64,000 nucleotides of DNA from Myxococcota bacterium (GTDB taxonomy: Bacteria; Myxococcota; XYA12-FULL-58-9; JALHOP01). The notes beneath the pieces were generated by a model. The model was not told the DNA's origin and made no database searches. It was given only the letters and a program-made list of their open reading frames with translations. This document shows positions 3,803-39,855 of this stretch, one piece after another. Position 1 is the first letter of the stretch. Every line of letters starts with the position of its first letter. The translations under genes were made by a program, and so were the position numbers. The stretch is from contig JALHOP010000009.1 of the NCBI GenBank assembly GCA_022842935.1, forward strand, positions 62,001 to 126,000, given 5' to 3'.

Positions 3803-4288
3803 CTAGAGAGAGACGTCGTCCGCTGCTTGCGGATTGTTGGTCGCGCACGCCGTCGCACTGCCGCGGGTGCCATTGCAGAGGACGTTGTTCTCGTTGATTT
3901 CCCAACCATCGACCGTCGCGTCGGTATCGATGTTACCCATGGCGGTCGCCGTGAAGCTGGTGGCGTTCTCGGCGGGCGAGGTCACGCTCGCGCCGCTGAA
4001 GGTCGAAGCCGGCTTCTGCGACGGATAGGCCGAGCTGCCACCGTGGTAGGTGTAGCGATTGCCCATCTCGGGGATGAAGTTACAGAGGTTGCAAGCGAAG
4101 GTGTCGTTCTCGGCGAAGTTCGACTTCTTGGCCACAAAGATGGCCTTGAGGTTGGCCTTGGCTTCCGACTGCTTGGACTTCGCCTGGAAGCGTACGAAGT
4201 TGGGGATCGCAATCGCAGCCAGAATGCCGATGATCGCGACGACGATCATGAGCTCGATGAGGGTGAAGCCCTTTTGCAGCTTGCGCAT
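3803..4288 (-). CDS. pilA: Type IV pilin PilA, first (promoter-proximal) copy
   Basis: A 161-residue prepilin, the first gene after the sigma-54 promoter at 4374-4389. I place the start at ATG 4286-4288 because the class III leader MRKLQKG begins there and AGGAG lies ten bases upstream. The reading frame is open further upstream but that extension has no pilin character. The mature protein begins [14 protein letters not shown] with the invariant Glu5. The untranslated leader would be about 70-75 bases. A strong hairpin follows the stop at 3759-3790 and may cap this message before the second copy. The sequence type resembles deltaproteobacterial and myxobacterial PilA but is shorter than M. 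xanthus PilA. Confidence 0.94.
3813..4288. repeat. Direct repeat copy 2: pilin coding sequence
   Basis: Partner of 3222-3697. It covers the promoter-proximal pilin gene from its ATG almost to its stop. No synonymous differences are visible, while the 5' leaders and 3' ends differ. Confidence 0.9.
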
Positions 4289-4373
4289 AGTCAGTTTGCT
4301 CCTAACAGCATCTCGGGAATGAAAAGTTGCAGTGCGCGTCGTGGGGATCACGTCGTGCTCGGCTGCTCTTGTC

Positions 4374-4389
4374 AGCAACCGTAGTGCCA
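4374..4389 (-). promoter_or_regulatory. Sigma-54 promoter of the pilin operon
   Basis: On the minus strand 4389-4374 reads TGGCAC, five bases (TACGG), then TTGCT. This matches the RpoN -24/-12 consensus TGGCAC-N5-TTGCW at every fixed position with the required spacing. Transcription would start near 4362 and give a leader of about 70-75 bases before the first pilin ATG. Sigma-54 control with PilS/PilR is established for pilA in Myxococcus and Pseudomonas. The activator gene itself is not in the window. Confidence 0.88.
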
Positions 4390-4440
4390 AACGACCAGTT
4401 GAGCAAAAAACCTTAGCAATGCCTTTCCTCGTGCCGACCG

Positions 4441-4479
4441 GTGACAAAAACTGTCGCGCGAACCCCCGCGAGTGACAAA
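4441..4479 (-). promoter_or_regulatory. Candidate enhancer-binding (PilR-type) repeats
   Basis: GTGACAAA occurs at 4441-4448 and again at 4472-4479, 31 bases apart (about three helical turns) in the same orientation. They lie roughly 80-115 bases upstream of the predicted sigma-54 start, the usual distance for an activator of this class. On the minus strand each reads TTTGTCAC, containing the TGTC core reported for PilR sites in Pseudomonas. This is inference from position and repetition only. Confidence 0.4.
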
Positions 4480-29823: not shown

Positions 29824-31686
29824 ATGAGTCACACCCGCCGCGCGTCAGCTCCGATCCGAGTGGATCAAGCCGCCGGTGTAGTGACCAACGGGCCGGACGA
29901 TCTCGTCGCCGATCCACAGCTGGCCATCGAAGCGCAGCGCCTCGAGCAGCCCCAGCAGCCCGGCCTTGGCAAGCGTGATGCGGTCGTCGCCAAGGACGCT
30001 GGCGGTCCTGCGGTCACGGCGCGTGACCTCGTCGCTGAGCGTCTCGACAACCCGCTCAACGCCGCCCAGTTGATGAACGTCATGCAGCCGCTCCCCGGCG
30101 GCTCCATCCCACGCGTCATCATCGAAAACGAAATCGCGCGCATGTCGGCCGACGGCTTCAGCGAGACCAGCCAGCGCGATTTCATCAAAGAGGTGAAGAA
30201 GCTCGCCAAGCTCAAGTCGCTCACCGGTTTGCCGAGCGCCATCAAGCGCCACGAGCTGAGCTCCGAGCAGCGCCAGGACCTCGCGTGGATCGCGCAGGTC
30301 GTGCGGGACTCCACCAGCCACAAACCCAAGCTCGACCTTGGCAGCTTGTCTGAGTTCTTCGGGGATCACGGTCTGCGCCTGCAATGGTCCGACAAGCACG
30401 ACTCCGACAAGCACTTCAGCAGCCTCGACCGCGGCGCCTTCAAGTCGCGCCTGCGGGTGATCCTCGAAGACGTCGCGCACAACGGCGGCGTGATGACCAA
30501 ACATCAGCTCGATAGCCTGCTTGGCATGCTCGAGCAGGTCACTGACGTCGCCGACATGAAGCACGCGCGCTGGATGATCGAGCGACGTGTCATGGCGGGT
30601 CAGCTCGAGATCCCCGAGGCCATCGAGATCCAGGGCAGGCGTCCGGGCGATCCGCCGCGCGTGCTGCGCTTGCGTGACCGCTTCGATGACTTCATGGGCG
30701 AGAAGCTGGTCGACTCCATCGATGTCCGCCAGATCGGATGGGAGGCGCGTGCCCTGCGCAAGGCTATCCAGGCAGCTCACGACCCCACGAAGTCGGGCGA
30801 CGGTATCGACCGCGAAGAGCTCCTCGCGGCGGTCGAGCAAGCGCGCGATCGCTTCTTGCAGACCGTCGAGGTCGCCGCCTCAGACAAGAACCCCGACCTC
30901 CTGCACTACGCTCGTCGCGCGTTGGACCGCGAGCTCGGAGGCAAATGTCACGTCGAGCAGGGTCACGTCTGTCGCAACGAGCTGCTTGCGTCGATCGACG
31001 CGCGTATGGGCGACCGCAGTGATCGCTACAGCAGACGACGCGAAATCGAGGCGCTGGTTGCCGAGGGCAAGCTCACCGAAAAAGAGGCATTCGTCGCCCA
31101 TGTCGGTGTCACTGTCACCACGACCAACACCGAGTATCGTCAGGTCCTCCCGCGCTTCGATGACCTTCTCGGTCTGCGCATTTCCTCAGTCGTTCTGGCG
31201 GCGATGGCGCTGGTCAACAAAGTCATCACCGACAACATCGGTGGCAGTGATGCCGAACGCGCGCGCGACGAGCAGCAGCGCCTTCGTAAAGCAGACGAGC
31301 GCCTGCGCGAGCAGCGCCTCTTCGATGCGCGGATCTTCGAAGACGGGCAGCGACTTCGTCGGAGCAACGAGCGCGTCGATGGTGCGTCCACTGATCTGAA
31401 GCGCGCACAGACCTCCGAGATCGTGGTCAGACGCTCGCAGGTGCGCGTCGACGGGGCGCGTCGCGAGCATCAGCAAGCCGTCGTCTTCCGCGTCGCAAAT
31501 CGCGAGCGAATCGCCAATGTTTTGTTCCGTGGTCGCCAGAGTCGTTTGTTTGGTGCCCAGACCGCACGAACCGGCGCCTTCAACCTCCTCACGACGGCAA
31601 GGGGCCCGGAACAAGTGAGCCGTGCGCTCGGTCAGATCAACCTCTTCGCTGGTGAAGCCGCGAAGAACAGTGGTCCGGCGCGCTAA
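29824..31686 (+). CDS. Large uncharacterised protein with helix-loop-helix repeats
   Basis: A 620-residue protein I do not recognise. It has no signal peptide or membrane segment. The N-terminal 100 residues look disordered. The middle (about 200-450) contains three similar helix-loop-helix units whose loops and second helices are loosely EF-hand-like: EDVAHNGGVMTKHQLDSLL, HDPTKSGDGIDREELLAAV and GGKCHVEQGHVCRNELLASI. The third has two cysteines. Residues about 500-580 are a long charged helix with coiled-coil character. ATG 29824 follows mutY by 79 bases. Function is unknown; calcium binding is a weak suggestion because loop spacing is not canonical. Confidence 0.7.
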   Translation: MSHTRRASAPIRVDQAAGVVTNGPDDLVADPQLAIEAQRLEQPQQPGLGKRDAVVAKDAGGPAVTARDLVAERLDNPLNAAQLMNVMQPLPGGSIPRVIIENEIARMSADGFSETSQRDFIKEVKKLAKLKSLTGLPSAIKRHELSSEQRQDLAWIAQVVRDSTSHKPKLDLGSLSEFFGDHGLRLQWSDKHDSDKHFSSLDRGAFKSRLRVILEDVAHNGGVMTKHQLDSLLGMLEQVTDVADMKHARWMIERRVMAGQLEIPEAIEIQGRRPGDPPRVLRLRDRFDDFMGEKLVDSIDVRQIGWEARALRKAIQAAHDPTKSGDGIDREELLAAVEQARDRFLQTVEVAASDKNPDLLHYARRALDRELGGKCHVEQGHVCRNELLASIDARMGDRSDRYSRRREIEALVAEGKLTEKEAFVAHVGVTVTTTNTEYRQVLPRFDDLLGLRISSVVLAAMALVNKVITDNIGGSDAERARDEQQRLRKADERLREQRLFDARIFEDGQRLRRSNERVDGASTDLKRAQTSEIVVRRSQVRVDGARREHQQAVVFRVANRERIANVLFRGRQSRLFGAQTARTGAFNLLTTARGPEQVSRALGQINLFAGEAAKNSGPAR

Positions 31687-31776
31687 GGCGCATTCAACGA
31701 ATCCCGTCGTGGTCGACGCGATGCCGCGGCAGGTGACCCCTTGCCTTCAGCAGCGGCTTCGCGCGAAGACGTGGAC

Positions 31777-32052
31777 ATGTCTGAAATCAAGATCGAGCGT
31801 AATCACCAGCTGGGTTCCTCTGAAGCGCGCAAGCGCGTCGACGGGCTCGAAGCCAAGCTCAAAGAGAAATACGGCGTGACCCTCGAGTGGAAGGGCAACG
31901 TCGCGAACGTCAAGGGCAGCGGCGTCTCCGGAACGCTCGCGGTCGAAGACGCCAAGGTCGCCGTCAACCTCAAGCTCGGGCTCCTGTTGCGGCCGCTCGC
32001 TGGCAAGATCAAGGAAGGCCTCGAGCATCAGGTCAACAAGGCGCTCGCTTAA
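31777..32052 (+). CDS. PHA-system (PHA_gran_rgn) small protein
   Basis: A 91-residue protein starting SEIKIERNHQLGSSEARKR and ending with LLRPLAGKIKEGLEHQVNK. This layout matches the polyhydroxyalkanoic acid system family, small proteins found with PHA granule genes and also widely without them. ATG 31777 is chosen because the family begins at this point; upstream in-frame sequence is unrelated. No PHA synthase is nearby. It lies 36 bases upstream of nadA. Confidence 0.8.
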   Translation: MSEIKIERNHQLGSSEARKRVDGLEAKLKEKYGVTLEWKGNVANVKGSGVSGTLAVEDAKVAVNLKLGLLLRPLAGKIKEGLEHQVNKALA

Positions 32053-32088
32053 GCTACAGCGCCCCCCAGGGGCCGTGCTTATCTTGTC

Positions 32089-33063
32089 GTGTCCATGGGC
32101 TTAGCATCGACCAAGCACGCCCCGGCGGCCCCCCGCGATCTATTCGCGGATATCGAGCGCTTGAAGCGCGAACGCAACGCGGTCGTGCTCGCGCATTACT
32201 ACCAAGAGCCAGACATCCAAGATGTCGCCGACATCTTGGGTGATTCGCTGCAGCTTGCGCGCGAAGCCCAGAAGACGAGCGCTGATGTCATCGTCTTGGC
32301 CGGTGTTCACTTCATGGCCGAGACCGCCAAGATCTTGAACCCCGGCAAACGCGTGCTCATCCCCGAGCCGAAGGCTGGCTGCTCCCTCGCGGACAGCTGC
32401 CCCCCAGACAAGTTCGCGGCGTTCAAGGCGGCGCACCCCGGTCACGTGGTGGTGAGCTACGTGAACACCACGGCCGCTATCAAGGCGCTCTCGGACTACT
32501 GCTGCACGTCGAGCAACGCCAAAGCGGTCATCGAGAGCATCCCACGCGAAACGCCCATCATCTTCGGCCCCGACAAGAACCTTGGCCGCTGGCTCATGGG
32601 CGAGACCCATCGTGACCTCGTCCTTTGGCCAGGCGCCTGTATCGTCCACGAGACTTTCAACGAGCGGCGCATCTTGAAGATGATGGCCGAGCATCCCGAC
32701 GCCGAGCTCATCGCCCATCCCGAGTGCGAGACGGCGGTCCTGCGGCACGCGCATTTCATCGGCTCGACCAAGGCGATGCTCGAGTATACGCAAAAACGGA
32801 CGACACAAACGTTCATTGTTGCTACCGAGAACGGCATCCTTCACACCATGCAGAAGGCGTCGCCCGGTAAGGTCTTCATCCCAGCAGCGCCGGTCGACAG
32901 CCGTGATCCGACGTGCGGTTGCAGCACCTGCCCGTTCATGAAGATGAACACGCTCGAGAAAGTCCACGCCTGCCTCGAACACATGGCCCCCGAGATCCTC
33001 ATGGACGAGCAGCTTCGCAAAGCAGCGCTGTTGCCCATCGAGCGCATGGTTGCGATTGGCTGA
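32089..33063 (+). CDS. nadA: Quinolinate synthase NadA
   Basis: A 324-residue 4Fe-4S enzyme that condenses iminoaspartate with dihydroxyacetone phosphate to quinolinate in de novo NAD synthesis. Family motifs are [42 protein letters not shown] (Cys98), WPGACIVHE (Cys184) and [12 protein letters not shown] (Cys281), giving the three cluster ligands. The start is GTG 32089 or ATG 32095. NadB and NadC are not adjacent. The toxin-antitoxin pair begins 46 bases after its stop. Confidence 0.95.
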
Positions 33064-33081
33064 TTCGCCACCACTTGACCA

Positions 33082-33103
33082 AGGTGACCTCTAGTGGTCA
33101 CCT
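33082..33103. promoter_or_regulatory. Inverted repeat, candidate toxin-antitoxin operator
   Basis: AGGTGACC at 33082-33089 and GGTCACCT at 33096-33103 form a perfect 8-base inverted repeat around TCTAGT. With a one-base bulge it extends outward by a further four bases. It sits six bases before the antitoxin start. Phd/YefM-type antitoxins bind palindromes in this position to autoregulate. Confidence 0.55.
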
Positions 33104-33109
33104 GGTTTG

Positions 33110-33403
33110 GTGAAAGCCGTCGGCATCAAAGCCTTCAAGGCTAAGCTCAGCGAGTACGTACGGCTCGTCAAAGGCGGCGAGACCATTCTCATTACTGAGC
33201 GGGATGACGTCGTGGCTGAGCTTCGGCCGGCGCGTCGACAAGATCGTCCACGCGATTCGCTCGTCGAAGCGCTGGACGTGATGGCTGAGCAAGGCGCCGT
33301 CACGTTGCGAAGCGCTGACGGACCGTGGTCGGGTCCGCAGGTTGTGACCAAGCTCGCCGGTCAATCATCGCAGCAGTTGCTCGATGCACTACGCGGAGAA
33401 TAG
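33110..33403 (+). CDS. Phd/YefM-family antitoxin
   Basis: A 97-residue protein whose first 45 residues have the Phd fold pattern: a short strand VKAVGIKAFKAKLSEYVRLV, then GGETILITERDDVVAELRPA. The C-terminal half (about 46-97) is the variable toxin-neutralising tail. The start is GTG 33110 (TTG 33107 is one codon earlier). Its TAG stop is followed within three bases by the likely CTG start of the PIN toxin in the same frame. The inverted repeat just upstream is a likely operator. It probably dimerises on DNA and blocks the toxin active site. Confidence 0.85.
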   Translation: MKAVGIKAFKAKLSEYVRLVKGGETILITERDDVVAELRPARRQDRPRDSLVEALDVMAEQGAVTLRSADGPWSGPQVVTKLAGQSSQQLLDALRGE

Positions 33404-33406
33404 GGA

Positions 33407-33805
33407 CTGAGCGCGGTTTTTCTCGAAACCACGGCCTTGCTGCGTGTGCTGTTCGATGAACCAGGCGCGGATGAGGTTCGGCTCGCTCTGACGACGCCCG
33501 AGCGCATCTTCGCGTCGCGTCTTCTTCGCATCGAGGCCGAGAGGGCCGTACTGCGTGCGACGCTCGATGACGCGCGTCTCGAGCGGCATGCGGCTTCGTT
33601 CGACAGAGTTCTCCGTGAGTTGTGGACACGCATAGACTTCTTCGAGATGACCAAGGAGATCTGTGACCTCGCAGGGCGCATCGTTCCGCGTGCGCGATTG
33701 CGTAGTCTCGACGCCATTCACATGGCGACCTTCCGACACACCCAGATCTTAGTGCCGGAAATCACGATGTTGACGTTCGACAAGCGACTCATCGATCTCT
33801 TGTAG
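33407..33805 (+). CDS. PIN-domain toxin (VapC-like), probable CTG start
   Basis: A predicted 132-residue PIN-domain ribonuclease. From CTG 33407 the protein reads MSAVFLETTALLRVLFDEPG, restoring the first beta strand of the PIN fold. GGAG lies eight bases before this CTG. The next start codon, TTG 33437, would delete that strand. The usual first active-site Asp is Glu here (LETTALL). The other acidic residues are present: RIEAERAV, SLDAIHMAT and LTFDKRL. VapC toxins cut tRNA or rRNA. A 12-base palindrome, CGAGGTACCTCG, lies just after the stop at 33812-33823. Confidence 0.75.
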   Translation: MSAVFLETTALLRVLFDEPGADEVRLALTTPERIFASRLLRIEAERAVLRATLDDARLERHAASFDRVLRELWTRIDFFEMTKEICDLAGRIVPRARLRSLDAIHMATFRHTQILVPEITMLTFDKRLIDLL

Positions 33806-33889
33806 CCGGTGCGAGGTACCTCGGCGCCCCGTGACTGATAAACGGAGCTTCGGCAAACTCGCGACTGAGCCCGAGAGGGGGCCGATATG

Positions 33890-34291
33890 CTACGTGTGCA
33901 CGGACGACGGGTGCCTGCTCTTCGCGAATAGAAGGTATGTACCGGCAGTGACGTCGAAGGCGAGGCAAAACCCAGGCCACCAAGAGGGAACGCCATGATT
34001 GGTAACAATACGTTCGTGTACGAGATCGAATAGTCCGTGCGCAAACAGGCCGACTGCAACAAGTAGCGGCCACGGTCGTGCGCCGAGGATCGCCAAAACC
34101 AGAAATCCGACGAACGGGACGAGCTCCGCTGCTAGAACGCCGAGAGCACCCGTCATGGTTGCGAACAGGAGATAGTACGCAGCAATGACAATCAGTACAG
34201 TCGGATAGAAGCTGCGATCCTTTTCGAAGTTCGCGACTCTAGCGAATACGCATACGACGAGAGCGAGCACGATTCCGGTGATGTAGTGCAT
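33890..34291 (-). CDS. Small membrane protein, DUF6010-like
   Basis: A 133-residue protein with about four membrane helices and the segment HGLFDLVHERIVTNHG followed by SWWPGFCLAFDV. The HG-x2-D-x2-H and PxWW-P-FC-xxD pattern resembles the DUF6010 family, of unknown function; that name is from memory and moderately secure. Base composition is visibly more A/T-rich than its neighbours. It is on the minus strand, 21 bases from the attC-like element at 34312-34370, which suggests it arrived as a gene cassette. Confidence 0.7.
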   Translation of the reverse strand: MHYITGIVLALVVCVFARVANFEKDRSFYPTVLIVIAAYYLLFATMTGALGVLAAELVPFVGFLVLAILGARPWPLLVAVGLFAHGLFDLVHERIVTNHGVPSWWPGFCLAFDVTAGTYLLFAKSRHPSSVHT

Positions 34292-34311
34292 GTGAGCAGT
34301 TTCTTCTCTGC

Positions 34312-34370
34312 GGCCTAACGTTTGAGCTGGGGGGCCGGTGGATGTCCCGGCTCGAGCGAAAAGTTAGGCC
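34312..34370 (+). mobile_element. attC-like integron recombination site
   Basis: GGCCTAAC (34312-34319) and GTTAGGCC (34363-34370) are perfect 8-base inverted outer arms. They contain the R'' (GCCTAAC) and R' (GTTAGGC) core sites of integron attC elements. Inside, TTGAGCTGGG (34322-34331) and CCCGGCTCGA (34346-34355) give a second imperfect stem, as L''/L' boxes do, with unequal spacers of two and seven bases. Core-to-core length is 57 bases, at the short end of known attC sites. No integron integrase or second attC is seen. Confidence 0.72.
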
Positions 34371-34593
34371 TCACTGCTTTGCGCGGCGATTCAGAACAGA
34401 GGCTTGGCCAAGACCGAGTTGCCGCAGAAGCACATTACTTCCCTGGGCACGTTCCGCCGACTCTCCGGGGAGTCCGGTTGGATGTAGAGCTTTCGCAGCG
34501 CGAAGCAGCGGATAGCAGAGCTTGGCGCACTTGTCATCGGACGTCGGGGTCCGCCATTCACGCAGCCTCGGGGCTCGATAGGAACTACGCACA
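34371..34593. other. Gap after attC-like site without a supported gene
   Basis: The full gene-free stretch is 34292-34593 and its first part is the attC-like element. The remainder has short overlapping open frames on both strands, none with a recognisable domain. A 67-codon minus-strand frame from TTG 34594 is the least unlikely. It could be a decayed cassette or the 5' region of the next gene, which has AGGA about ten bases before its ATG. Confidence 0.4.
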
Positions 34594-35199
34594 ATGATCA
34601 CCATCGCTCTCGCCACACTGCTCGCTACAACGCCTACCAAACCGGCGCGCACCGAAGTCACGCACGCCGAGTACGCGCGGTGCGTCGAGGCCAAGGCCTG
34701 CACGCCGCGGTCGACGGATGAGCTCCTTTGGAAGGACCAGTGTGTTGATCCAAAGCTCGGGACCAATCCAGTGGACTGCATCTCGGCGGCTCAAGCTGCC
34801 GAGTATTGCCGTTTTGTCGGCTCGCGTTTACCGACCGCCAAGGAGTGGCGGAGCTGGGTCTCCGGTTTGGACGTCGCGCAGATGCGCGCGTCCGCGAAAG
34901 CGTTTGCCAATCTCGCCGACCGGGAGCTTCGCCACCGCGTGGTGCACGGACCGCTAAGCCCGTTGGCGTATATCGACAAGCACGTTTTTGCGGCGCCAGT
35001 CGGCTCCTATCCGGCGAGTACCGTGGATGGTGTCGCGGACCTTGTTGGGAACGTCTCGGAGTGGACCTCGGATGGGATTGCACTCGGGACCAGCTACTTG
35101 AGTGTGCCCGAGCCGCTGGACGTGGTCGAACTGGCCGAGGCCACATCGGATATGCGACGGCCGGATATCGGGGTCCGGTGCGTCGCTCAGCCGCAGTGA
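34594..35199 (+). CDS. Formylglycine-enzyme-like (SUMF1) exported protein
   Basis: A 201-residue protein with a short N-terminal hydrophobic stretch and the FGE-sulfatase fold pattern: CISAAQAAEYCRFVGSRLPTAKEW, VADLVGNVSEWTSDG and DIGVRCV at the end. These are the three signature regions of the SUMF1 domain. The active-site cysteine pair of true formylglycine-generating enzymes is not evident, so this is probably a non-enzymatic SUMF1 module as used in myxobacterial surface or signalling proteins. It ends 24 bases before the convergent DUF6178-type gene. Confidence 0.8.
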   Translation: MITIALATLLATTPTKPARTEVTHAEYARCVEAKACTPRSTDELLWKDQCVDPKLGTNPVDCISAAQAAEYCRFVGSRLPTAKEWRSWVSGLDVAQMRASAKAFANLADRELRHRVVHGPLSPLAYIDKHVFAAPVGSYPASTVDGVADLVGNVSEWTSDGIALGTSYLSVPEPLDVVELAEATSDMRRPDIGVRCVAQPQ

Positions 35200-35223
35200 T
35201 GCGATGGCACAATCACGGCACTG

Positions 35224-36537
35224 CTAGGTAAGCCGCTTGTTGAGCGCATCGAGGCGCCGCTCCGCCATGGTCACGTCTTCGCGCGATGCGAATGCGCGCG
35301 ATGACGTCGGCTTGAGAGCGTCGGTGCCAGCCAGCATGATCGGCACGTGCAAGAGACCCTGCACGAATGCCCGGTCGCGTTTGTCTTCCGAGTAGTCGTC
35401 CGCCTCGGTCTCGACCTTTTGCAGCCATGCGGCGACTACAGGGTCGCGCGCCATCACGCCCGCGCGCTTTTGCAAGGGCACGCTCTCTTGGTACCCCTGA
35501 CGGAAGAGGTCGACCAGCGACCAAGACGTAAGCAGCGTCGCTAGAGCAGCGTCCGACGCGTCAGGGCCCGTCGCCGACTCGAGCCCGAGCGATACGGTAT
35601 CGCGGACACGTCGCGCGATGTCGGCGACGTTTGAGACCTCGCGCGGTGACTCGCCGAAGGCAATGACCGCAAGGTTGACGAGTTGCAAGAAGTCGCGCTC
35701 GAGCTGGGCAATGAGCTCCTCGTTGTCGAGCGCCGAGAGGCCGCGCGAGAGAAGAGAGCGGTCGAGCAGAGGAGCTGCATAAAGAGCCGGGAGCGTCTGG
35801 ACCCAGCCGTGCGCGGCGATGCGGGGCGGACGCGGTTGAACGGGCGGTGGCGTAAACAGGACGAGCGCTTCGTCGCGCGAAGGGAAACCCATGTCCTCGA
35901 CGCGGCCGGCGCGGAAGCGATAGGCCTCCTCTGCGAGTGTGCTCATCAGCTCCCAGCGTGCGGCCACTAGCGAGCGGTGGGCTTCCTCGAGATCCTGACG
36001 GTAAAGCGCGTCGACCAGCACGAGCGGATCGAGCTCTCCTTCGTAGCTCTGCTTCACGTCGATCACGAACAGGCGGTCGGGGGTGTTGAAGCGACGCGCG
36101 TTTTCGGCGGGCTCCGGCGCCGGTTGGTCGCCCTCGGCCTCATAGACGTCGAGCGCCTCGGCGAGGAACCAAACCTGCAACTCCGTGTCCAGCGATGTAA
36201 ACGCCGACGCCAACGCCTCCATTCCGTCGGCCGCGAAAGCAGACAGCCAGGCGTCGAGCTCGACAGGGTCGGGCAGGTCGCCGCGCCAGCAGTCGAGATC
36301 GACGAAGGCTTGGAGCTGGTCCGCGGTGGCGGCTCGCAAAATTGGTAGCGCTGACTCGAGGCCGACTTCCTTGACGATGAAATAGGCTTCGAGCGGCTCG
36401 AGAGCCTGCACCTGCTCGCGCAGGTTTGGAGACTCGATGAGCTTGTCGGCGCGTCGCGACAACGAGCGGGCGAGATCGGCCCGAAAACGCGTCAACGTAA
36501 TGACGTTGATGTCACTCATCTGTCGGTCGTTTGCCAT
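35224..36537 (-). CDS. DUF6178-type protein
   Basis: A 437-residue, mostly helical cytosolic protein. Its opening, with LEPLEAYFIVKEVGLESALPILRAATADQ and LDLDCWRGDLPDP split by a few residues, matches what I recall of DUF6178, a family common in deltaproteobacteria and without known function. I start at ATG 36537; ATG 36519 (MSDINVITL) is also possible. It is preceded by the coiled-coil gene in the same direction with 53 bases between them. No catalytic motif is seen. Confidence 0.65.
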   Translation of the reverse strand: MANDRQMSDINVITLTRFRADLARSLSRRADKLIESPNLREQVQALEPLEAYFIVKEVGLESALPILRAATADQLQAFVDLDCWRGDLPDPVELDAWLSAFAADGMEALASAFTSLDTELQVWFLAEALDVYEAEGDQPAPEPAENARRFNTPDRLFVIDVKQSYEGELDPLVLVDALYRQDLEEAHRSLVAARWELMSTLAEEAYRFRAGRVEDMGFPSRDEALVLFTPPPVQPRPPRIAAHGWVQTLPALYAAPLLDRSLLSRGLSALDNEELIAQLERDFLQLVNLAVIAFGESPREVSNVADIARRVRDTVSLGLESATGPDASDAALATLLTSWSLVDLFRQGYQESVPLQKRAGVMARDPVVAAWLQKVETEADDYSEDKRDRAFVQGLLHVPIMLAGTDALKPTSSRAFASREDVTMAERRLDALNKRLT

Positions 36538-36590
36538 GCGGCACGATGCGACCCATGCGGATCGCCACAAAAGAGTGGGGTTCGCGCATG

Positions 36591-37514
36591 TCAGTTGTTG
36601 GAGGCATCGCGCTGGCGCAGGACGCCCACCAGCTCGTTCGACAGCGCATGAACGTCGTCAGCATCATCGCCTGCTTCGCTGGCGTCAGGGGCGGCCCCTG
36701 GGGCGGCATCGTTCGCGGCCGATGCGCGCGGTTCGGACGGCTTTTCCGCCGGTGGGCGCGGCGCCGGCGGTGCGCTCTCGCCTTTCAGAGCTGCGAGCTC
36801 ACTGATGGCATCGTAGTACTGCCGCCCGATGCTGCCGAGCTTGTCGTTGAGCAACTCGACGCGGCTCTTGGCCACTAGATCGGCGCGGCGGTAGTCGTCG
36901 ACCTTCTTTTTCATGCGGCGCTGCTCGCCCAAGGCATGGCGCAGGTCGGACTCGAGCTTGCCGAGCCGCTCGGCCAGCTCATTGTTTTCTTTGGTGGCGT
37001 TTTCGAGCTTACGTGCGAGCTCGTTGTCCGCTGGAGTAGTCACCCCTCCCATCGGCGGCCGGCTTTCGGACATCGGCTTCTCGGCCTCGGCGCTCGACGG
37101 CCGGATGTCGCCGTTGCGGCCATCGGTCTTCGATGCCTCCCCCTTCATGACCTTCGGCTTTTCCGCCTCGACGTGCTCGAACGCCGGGCGCGCGACCAGC
37201 TGCTTTTCGCGCTCCTCGAGCTTCGCCTCGAGCGACGTCTTGGTCTTCTTTGCGCCTTCCTGGAGGGCAAAGTTCTTCTTTTTGAGAGCGCCGATCTCTT
37301 TCTTGATCTCGGTGAGCTCCTCGCTGCGCGTCTCCAAGAGCTTCGCGTTCTTCTTTTGATCGGCGGCCACCTGCTTCACTTGCTCCTGCAGTGAAGCATT
37401 CTCGACGAGCAGCGACGCGACGCGCGCCGAGGCGGCTTTGGCTTTGGAGAGGCCCGAGAGCCAGAGGACGAAGGCAATGACGGCCAAGGCGAGCGCGGCG
37501 AAGGCGATTGGCAT
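36591..37514 (-). CDS. Membrane-anchored coiled-coil protein
   Basis: A 307-residue protein with one N-terminal membrane helix (about residues 2-20), then two long coiled-coil blocks (about 25-110 and 165-250) separated by a charged linker and ended by a Pro/Ala/Asp-rich tail. It has no enzymatic motif. ATG 37514 starts just before the helix; GTG 37574 would add 20 polar residues. It is divergent from the Ser/Thr kinase gene across 88 bases, so shared regulation is possible. Its topology suggests a cell-envelope scaffold facing one side of the inner membrane. Confidence 0.7.
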   Translation of the reverse strand: MPIAFAALALAVIAFVLWLSGLSKAKAASARVASLLVENASLQEQVKQVAADQKKNAKLLETRSEELTEIKKEIGALKKKNFALQEGAKKTKTSLEAKLEEREKQLVARPAFEHVEAEKPKVMKGEASKTDGRNGDIRPSSAEAEKPMSESRPPMGGVTTPADNELARKLENATKENNELAERLGKLESDLRHALGEQRRMKKKVDDYRRADLVAKSRVELLNDKLGSIGRQYYDAISELAALKGESAPPAPRPPAEKPSEPRASAANDAAPGAAPDASEAGDDADDVHALSNELVGVLRQRDASNN

Positions 37515-37602
37515 AGGGCGCGGGTTCTGCCGCTCGCCACTAGCGGTGTCAAGGGAACGGCTGTTTGCGGCCACTCGAGCTTGAGATACAAGAGGCTCTC
37601 CC

Positions 37603-39855
37603 TTGGAAGTGTTTGGCCGCTACCGTCTTTTGGACCGCGTCGCCGTCGGCGGCATGGCCGAGGTGTTCCTCGCTCGGACTTCGAGCATCGACGGCTTCGA
37701 CAAAGACCTGGTCATCAAGCGCATCCGGCCGGAGCTGACGCGCGACGAGACTTTCGTCTCGATGTTCATCGACGAGGCGCGCGTCTCCATCGCCCTCGCG
37801 CACCCAAACGTCGTCCAGGTCTTCGACTTTGGCTCCGTCCCGACCGACGATGGCAATAGCTACTATCTGGCGATGGAGTTCGTTCGGGGGTGTGACCTCG
37901 GCGCGCTCCTCGGGCTCGACGAGTTCGACGCCCGCGGCTTACCCCCCGAAGTTGCGCTCTATTGCGTCGGGCAAATGTGCCGCGGCCTCGACTACGCGCA
38001 CAACCTGCGTGGTCGACACGGCGAGCCCCTGCAGGTCATTCACCGCGACATCAGCCCCCGCAACGTCCTCCTGAGCTTCGATGGCGGAGTGAAGATCGCC
38101 GACTTCGGCATTGCCAAAGCGAAGAACCGCATCAGTCAAACACAGCCGGGCATGGTGCTCGGTAAGCTCGTCTACATGGCGCCCGAGCACGCCACCGGCC
38201 TCGCTATCGACGCGCGGGCAGACGTCTTTTCCACCGGCGCCGTACTTTGGGAGCTGTTGACCGGACACCAGCTATACGGCGGTCAGCTCACGCCGGAGGC
38301 CATGAACCGCATCCGTGTGGCCGATGTCGAGCGGCCCTCGGTGTACGCGAAACGTATTGGCCGCAAGCTCGACGCGCTGGTGATGAAGGCGCTGGCGCGC
38401 GAAGCCGCCGACCGCTTCCAGTCGGCGCGTGAAATGGGGGTGGCTATCTCGGAGCTCCTCGCCAAAGAGTATCGATCGTTCAGCGACTACGATCTGCAAA
38501 GCTTTCTCGACGAGCGACGGCAACTACTGCCCTCACACAGCTTCGAAGCCTTCGCGGACGAGCCAGCGCCACCGCAACCAGCGGAACCGGAGGTGGTCCT
38601 CCTCGACCAGGTCAAGCAGCCGTTCGTGAAGTCGGGTACGAGCATGGCCTATCCCGACCCCGCCCATGCACAAGCGAGTCATGCGTTCTCCTGGAGCCCC
38701 GAGTTCGTAGAGGCTGTCGAGCAGTTCCGCGAGCGGCCGAGCATCTGGGCCCTCGTCCACATGGCCGACCTGTGCCGTCACGAAGGCCAGACCGATGCTG
38801 CCCTGGCGATCTACCGTATCGCCGCGCTCACCTTCGCGCAGCACGGTCTGCTCACCCAGGCCATGCTCTGCTGCCGTGGTGCGCTCGAGAGTCGCCGCGA
38901 CGAAGCGACGCGCGCCATGGTCACGCTGGTGCCCCGCTGCGCGTTCGCTTCGGCGGACACGATGCGTAGCGTGTTGTTCGCGAGTAGCGGACCTGTCGAG
39001 AGCCTCATGACCGAGCTCCTCGAGCTCGCGCCGGTGCGAATCGGCCGCGCCGAGAGCCCCACCAAGCTCCTCACCGAGCTCTCCGCAAACGGGTTCGCGA
39101 CTCTCGTCGAGCGCTGCGAGTTACGACACGTCGGCGAGGGCGAGCTCATCGTCCGACAAGGCGATATCGGTCGCGAGCTCTTCCTCATCGCCAACGGGCG
39201 AGCCTTGGTGCATGCGACGCGCGCAAACGGCGAGCGTGTCTACATCGCCTCGCTCACCAGCGGCGATTTCTTCGGCGAGAACGGCTTCTTCACGGGGTCG
39301 CCGCGCACCGCTTCCATCGAGGCGCTTTATCCGACCCAGGTCTTCGTCATCACCCAGGAACTTTACGCGAAAGCGGCGGCTGACAACGCTCGAGCGGACG
39401 CGACACTGCTTGCCTTCTACAAGGAAAGAGTCGTCGACGCCGTGCTCGCCACCTCGCAGGTCTTCGGCCTACTTCCGCACGGTTCACGGCGCGCGATGAT
39501 CGAACGCTTCCGTTTGCGCACATTCATTGCCGGCTCGATGGTCCTGCGCGAAGGGGAAACGTCCGACGACATCTACGTCATCAAGAATGGCGAGGCAGAG
39601 GTCTTCACCGCCCACAACGGCACACGTACGAACCTGTCGACCCTGGGTCCGGGCACGTTGTTCGGGGAGGTCGCGGCGCTGCGCGGCATCCCACGCACCG
39701 CGTCGATCGTCGCAAAGAGCGATTTGACCGCCTTGGTGCTGTCTAAACGGGATTTCTTGGCGGTCGTCGATGAGCGGCCAGCGGTGCGCAAGCAGGTGAT
39801 GGACGTCATCGCCTCACGGGTTAGGGAAAACCTCGACAAGCTCATGGCACGCTGA
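37603..39855 (+). CDS. Ser/Thr protein kinase with two cyclic-nucleotide-binding domains
   Basis: A 750-residue protein. The Hanks-type kinase domain (about 7-290) has the glycine loop AVGGMAEV, Lys39 in LVIKRI, catalytic HRDISPRN (Asp149) and DFGIAKA (Asp167). A TPR-like stretch lies around 365-450. Two cNMP-binding domains follow (about 500-615 and 620-735), each with an intact phosphate-binding cassette: FFGENGFFTGSPRTAS and LFGEVAALRGIPRTAS. The order kinase then two cNMP domains reverses that of eukaryotic PKG. The start is TTG 37603 with AGAGG seven bases upstream. The FHA gene follows after 17 bases. Confidence 0.92.
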   Translation: MEVFGRYRLLDRVAVGGMAEVFLARTSSIDGFDKDLVIKRIRPELTRDETFVSMFIDEARVSIALAHPNVVQVFDFGSVPTDDGNSYYLAMEFVRGCDLGALLGLDEFDARGLPPEVALYCVGQMCRGLDYAHNLRGRHGEPLQVIHRDISPRNVLLSFDGGVKIADFGIAKAKNRISQTQPGMVLGKLVYMAPEHATGLAIDARADVFSTGAVLWELLTGHQLYGGQLTPEAMNRIRVADVERPSVYAKRIGRKLDALVMKALAREAADRFQSAREMGVAISELLAKEYRSFSDYDLQSFLDERRQLLPSHSFEAFADEPAPPQPAEPEVVLLDQVKQPFVKSGTSMAYPDPAHAQASHAFSWSPEFVEAVEQFRERPSIWALVHMADLCRHEGQTDAALAIYRIAALTFAQHGLLTQAMLCCRGALESRRDEATRAMVTLVPRCAFASADTMRSVLFASSGPVESLMTELLELAPVRIGRAESPTKLLTELSANGFATLVERCELRHVGEGELIVRQGDIGRELFLIANGRALVHATRANGERVYIASLTSGDFFGENGFFTGSPRTASIEALYPTQVFVITQELYAKAAADNARADATLLAFYKERVVDAVLATSQVFGLLPHGSRRAMIERFRLRTFIAGSMVLREGETSDDIYVIKNGEAEVFTAHNGTRTNLSTLGPGTLFGEVAALRGIPRTASIVAKSDLTALVLSKRDFLAVVDERPAVRKQVMDVIASRVRENLDKLMAR

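Follow-up and report, generated by a model that had tools for sequence, protein, structure and literature searches.

A lone attC-like site in a block absent from relatives

A single palindrome with the shape of an integron attC site, lying beside a small membrane gene in a Myxococcota genome, raises two questions: whether it is a genuine recombination site, and whether the neighboring gene arrived with it as a cassette. The site lies in a 64,000-nucleotide stretch of contig JALHOP010000009.1 (the window, to which all positions refer unless another locus is named). An earlier reading of the letters alone had proposed a lone attC, an adjacent captured gene and no local integrase, and had pointed to the corresponding interval in relatives as the place to look for an empty site. 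We conclude that the site is very probably a genuine lone attC (a SALIN) whose cassette gene is probably the DUF6010-like gene next to it, most likely brought in by an integron integrase (IntI) acting in trans, with decay thereafter.

The comparison with relatives bore out the expectation of an empty site. In three members of the same order, a convergent DUF6178 gene follows nadA after a few tens of bases and the block is absent; here, 2,160 bp holding a toxin-antitoxin pair, the DUF6010 gene, the attC site and an FGE-like gene part the two. Because nadA and DUF6178 are nearly adjacent in these three relatives, the block is best read as a gain in this lineage; its loss in three other lineages is less likely. 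The features of the region are as follows:

32089–33063, plus strand: nadA (PF02445), native left flank and conserved neighbor of DUF6178
33064–35223, no strand assigned: block of 2,160 bp between nadA and DUF6178, lacking in three relatives
33107–33403, plus strand: Phd/YefM-like antitoxin (PF02604, E 4.3e-6, below cut-off); cassette membership putative
33410–33805, plus strand: PIN-domain toxin (PF01850, E 1.4e-11); cassette membership putative
33890–34291, minus strand: DUF6010-like small membrane protein, 133 aa; probable cassette gene
34292–34312, minus strand: cassette-like leader, 21 nt from R' to ATG, its first 6 bases common to a Leptolyngbya plasmid cassette
34313–34369, minus strand: attC site, 57 nt from R'' to R', called by covariance model R1 and our own profile
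34594–35199, plus strand: FGE-sulfatase-domain gene (PF03781, E 9.4e-20); cassette membership putative
35224–36570, minus strand: DUF6178 gene (PF19676, E 2.3e-75), native right flank

Since it shares the block, the toxin-antitoxin pair may possibly have come along with the attC cassette. Just upstream of the antitoxin gene lies a perfect inverted repeat, AGGTGACC-TCTAGT-GGTCACCT (33076–33103), which probably serves as the antitoxin operator or else is a remnant of the end of nadA.

The site parses as an attC on the minus strand

The perfect outer arms and 57-base core spacing described by the sequence-only reading are both present: GGCCTAAC (34312–34319) and GTTAGGCC (34363–34370) match perfectly, and GCCTAAC...GTTAGGC spans 57 bases, pairs at 7 of 7 positions in the R box and fits the RYYYAAC / GTTRRRY consensus. 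The inner stem it had drawn, TTGAGCTGGG/CCCGGCTCGA, also exists in the sequence and is close to the pairing that plain folding of the site favors; it is not the L box of the attC, which instead pairs GCT[C]GAG with CCCAGC (5 of 6 pairs) on the minus strand. With this box go spacers of 5 and 6 nt and the extrahelical base. The orientation also needed correction: the attC lies on the minus strand, and its R' is turned toward the DUF6010-like gene. In the order in which it is read, all on the minus strand, its parts are:

34363–34369: R'' box, GCCTAAC, in perfect pairing with R'
34358–34362: unpaired central spacer TTTTC, 5 nt, parsed against the class 1 attC alignment A1
34346–34357: L'' region, GCT[C]GAG(CC)GGG, with the extrahelical C at 34354
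34335–34345: variable terminal structure (loop), ACATCCACCGG, from the parse
34326–34334: L' region, CCCCCCAGC, with one A-C mismatch in the L box
34320–34325: unpaired central spacer TCAAAC, 6 nt, from the parse and comparison with class 1 sites
34313–34319: R' box, GTTAGGC, with predicted IntI cleavage between G and TT

IntI cleaves attC sites between the G and TT of R'. The canonical fold has a computed probability of about 5e-6. This value is low, yet the range obtained for class 1 sites includes it, those for dfrA1 and VIM-2 being no higher.

Covariance and profile searches place the whole site well beyond chance

We then sought to determine how well the site matches attC sites as a class. 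Twenty attC sites were collected from class 1 integrons on plasmids, and the 18 whose end parts align almost without gaps were used, with the window site left out, to build covariance model R1 (alignment A1). Covariation of the attC structure (an R box of 7 bp and an L box of 6 bp plus one extrahelical base) in this alignment is strong, with a score of 0.456 as compared with 0.144 after shuffling and no more than 0.105 after sliding. R1 finds the site on the minus strand of the window at 31.9 bits (E 9e-6 for the window), as compared with 10.7 bits on the plus strand, so that the attC structure claimed from the sequence passes a covariance-model check with our own 18-site model. In a search of the 6.28-Mb assembly the site has an E value of 8.8e-4, a rough figure from a short calibration, and no other match at E ≤ 10 emerged among the 150 of 2,863 first-look candidates that were scored. 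A scan of nearly all of its contig (C9) gave one other match, at the chance level (13.8 bits, E 2.1). With no second significant match in either search, the description of the attC as lone holds.

A hand-made attC profile, whose architecture was set down after the site had been seen but whose training set excludes it, scores the site at 30.0 bits and the rest of the window nowhere at 12 bits or more. Real attC sites score 25.8–54.8 bits when each is left out in turn, placing the window site near the weak end of their range, and 90 Mb of Markov-random sequence (window composition, one strand) reached 30 bits once. The exact pattern GCCTAAC-N43-60-GTTAGGC occurs a single time in the assembly, and a reversed-pattern control not at all; degenerate RYYYAAC..GTTRRRY pairs number 24 genome-wide versus 33 in the control. 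Given this lack of enrichment, the arms alone prove little, and the genome harbors no concealed array of short attC sites built on that pattern. Taken as a whole, the site lies far outside what chance would produce.

Comparison with 7.3 Gb of plasmid sequence by BLAST returned four weak matches to the 73-bp site (best E 0.1), none of them significant alone. The best is identical at 22 of 22 bases (AGCTCAAACGTTAGGCCGCAGA) to the L'-R' end of a Leptolyngbya plasmid attC, which stands at the start of a cassette and scores 32.8 bits with R1; one of the others falls on the attC belonging to the VIM-5 cassette in a class 1 integron. Together, these matches point the same way and fix the orientation of the site. 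The exact boundary pattern was absent from viral contigs, and an Rfam search of 30000–38000 gave no match.

The DUF6010-like gene is the probable cassette gene

R' faces the DUF6010-like gene, whose ATG follows 21 nt beyond, as in cassettes; in two cassettes of the same phylum (G116 and G090), the corresponding distances are 21 and 18 nt. The gene matches Pfam PF19473 just under the gathering score (E 1.1e-5), and its product is 44–49% identical to full-length homologues in Acidobacteria and in one other genome of the phylum, so that the gene looks intact. G+C content around it is about 57%, versus 60–65% nearby. Model R1 found no closing 3' attC between 33063 and 33890. The capture of this gene as a cassette, as put forward by the sequence-only reading, is thus upheld in its cassette-like distance and orientation and in the absence of the block from relatives; the gene's own downstream attC is missing, and its status as a complete cassette accordingly remains putative. 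The DUF6010 homologues of Acidobacteria, of the one same-phylum genome and of plasmids have no attC alongside, and a Calothrix homologue has a weak one 2.6 kb away.

Integrases and attC sites elsewhere in the genome and phylum

No gene in the assembly exceeds the family cut-off for an integron integrase (TIGR02249), in agreement with the absence of an integrase suspected from the window. The best candidate, a tyrosine recombinase on contig C23, falls below the cut-off and leaves profile positions 172–230 unmatched; it was not called IntI. True IntI genes occur in 4 of 117 relatives, and the flanking regions fetched around these four (L037–L040) contain no attC. At E ≤ 0.01, a threshold at which about 1.5 false matches are expected, a survey of 146 relatives found attC matches in this genome and in three others, none of which is among the four IntI genomes. 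In two of these three, an intact attC is followed after 21 or 18 nt by the ATG of a small gene and then by the left half of a second attC.

In another phylum genome (L074 1501–2020; L098 3042–4649), an attC comes after a nucleotidyltransferase (MNT-type)/putative HEPN pair and is followed by a small membrane gene, the left half of a second attC and, 1.5 kb on, a further attC of 23.2 bits; this locus is a small integrase-less cassette cluster. A near-complete phylum genome (L072 1501–2150) has a strong aadA-type attC (50.9 bits) with a 177-aa gene 18 nt beyond, after which comes a second attC truncated in its loop. The pattern of left halves kept and right halves lost was thus met twice (L072 and L074/L098). 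A lone attC at L073 (1501–1563) stands right after the gene for a Dam-type phage adenine methyltransferase, and the stop codon of that gene overlaps R''.

Alternative explanations

One objection is that the palindrome arose by chance, or that the hairpin serves some other function (as a terminator or operator), and happens to mimic an attC. Exact arms alone could arise about once per genome by chance, degenerate core pairs are not enriched, and a look-alike on contig C10 (GCCTAAC..GTTGGGC) proved to be an ordinary post-gene hairpin overlapping a stop codon. Against this, the whole site stands out both genome-wide under R1 and against the single 30-bit hit in 90 Mb of the profile null, and its boundary sequence recurs at the Leptolyngbya plasmid cassette. 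Further, neither a T-run nor a terminator-like site was found at the attC, and its position between two divergent genes is not one in which a terminator would be expected. We therefore regard mimicry as very improbable. It is likewise unlikely, if less so, that the attC is real but belonged to a cassette since lost from its other side, with the DUF6010 gene a bystander. A lone inserted cassette carries its attC 3' of its gene, a minus-strand ORF at 34371–34781 ends in a TGA that abuts R'', and the DUF6010 side has no closing attC. That ORF, however, runs antisense over the FGE gene and has neither a family nor a meaningful plasmid match; the distance of 21 nt to the DUF6010 ATG is one commonly seen in cassettes and recurs in G116 and G090.

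Of greater weight, and a real contender though we do not favor it, is the possibility that the block is ordinary horizontal DNA, moved by transposition or homologous recombination with the attC already in it, so that no IntI acted in this lineage. Such an origin fits a block whose toxin-antitoxin pair and FGE-like gene have no attC sites, a genome that lacks an integrase, and the want of any visible attI or recombination boundary. Against it, the ORF list and family search reveal no transposase gene in the block, and experiments have documented cassette insertion at non-attI (attG) sites (Loot 2024, as cited in PMC12444791). A bolder proposal is that the whole 2.16-kb block is a decayed cassette array placed in trans, and that such eroded cassettes are a general, unrecognized route of gene gain in the phylum; this we consider doubtful.

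Proposed origin and comparison with known systems

We favor insertion of the DUF6010-like gene by an integrase acting in trans, a history that we infer, together with the subsequent decay, from the arrangement of the locus. In such a scheme, the bottom strand of the site (the plus strand of the window) would fold into a hairpin of R box, spacer and L box with the extrahelical base that IntI recognizes, and IntI would be predicted to cut at the G/TT step of R'. An integrase supplied, for example, by a plasmid or a lost integron would have inserted one or more cassettes between nadA and DUF6178, possibly at a non-attI target, as with attG sites. The DUF6010-like gene would be the cassette gene after this attC, and the other attC site or sites would later have decayed or been deleted.

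For a phylum with few described integron cassettes, this contributes a well-supported gene marked by an attC site, together with a comparison to empty sites. It suggests that cassettes get into the chromosomes of integron-free bacteria, with implications for the distance over which integron-borne genes can spread.

The term SALIN denotes one attC on its own, with no integron-integrase (PMC9229058, PMC12690207), and the authors of IntegronFinder allow that single-attC CALINs can be true (PMC9024848). Exactly one attC and no integron-integrase were found here, in a draft assembly that is 97.4% complete and with 150 of 2,863 candidates scored. A CALIN has two or more attC sites, and no second one lies nearby, the weak match elsewhere on contig C9 being at the chance level; a complete integron has an IntI, and none exceeds the family cut-off. 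Like the elements described in these three papers, this one combines a single attC, an adjacent small gene and an integrase-free genome; it differs in having its gene downstream of R' with the closing attC missing, and in coming from a phylum little studied for cassettes.

The Leptolyngbya sp. BL0902 plasmid cassette (L060, about 4010–4474) shares its 22 identical bases with the window across L', the spacer, R' and the cassette start; its gene differs from the DUF6010-like gene, and it is closed by a second attC-like sequence, seen by eye and not called by R1. The plasmid region (L060, about 4001–4474) is itself an unannotated integron cassette with a small ORF and one model-confirmed attC. 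As compared with the aacA4, OXA-1 and gcu sites of class 1 integrons, the window site has a shorter loop, one L-box mismatch and a weaker score; its R box, its 5- and 6-nt spacers and the position of the extrahelical C in L'' are alike, and the TCAAAC beside R' is identical to that of the aacA4, qacG2, OXA-1 and gcu sites. It is a known kind of element, in a poorly sampled lineage.
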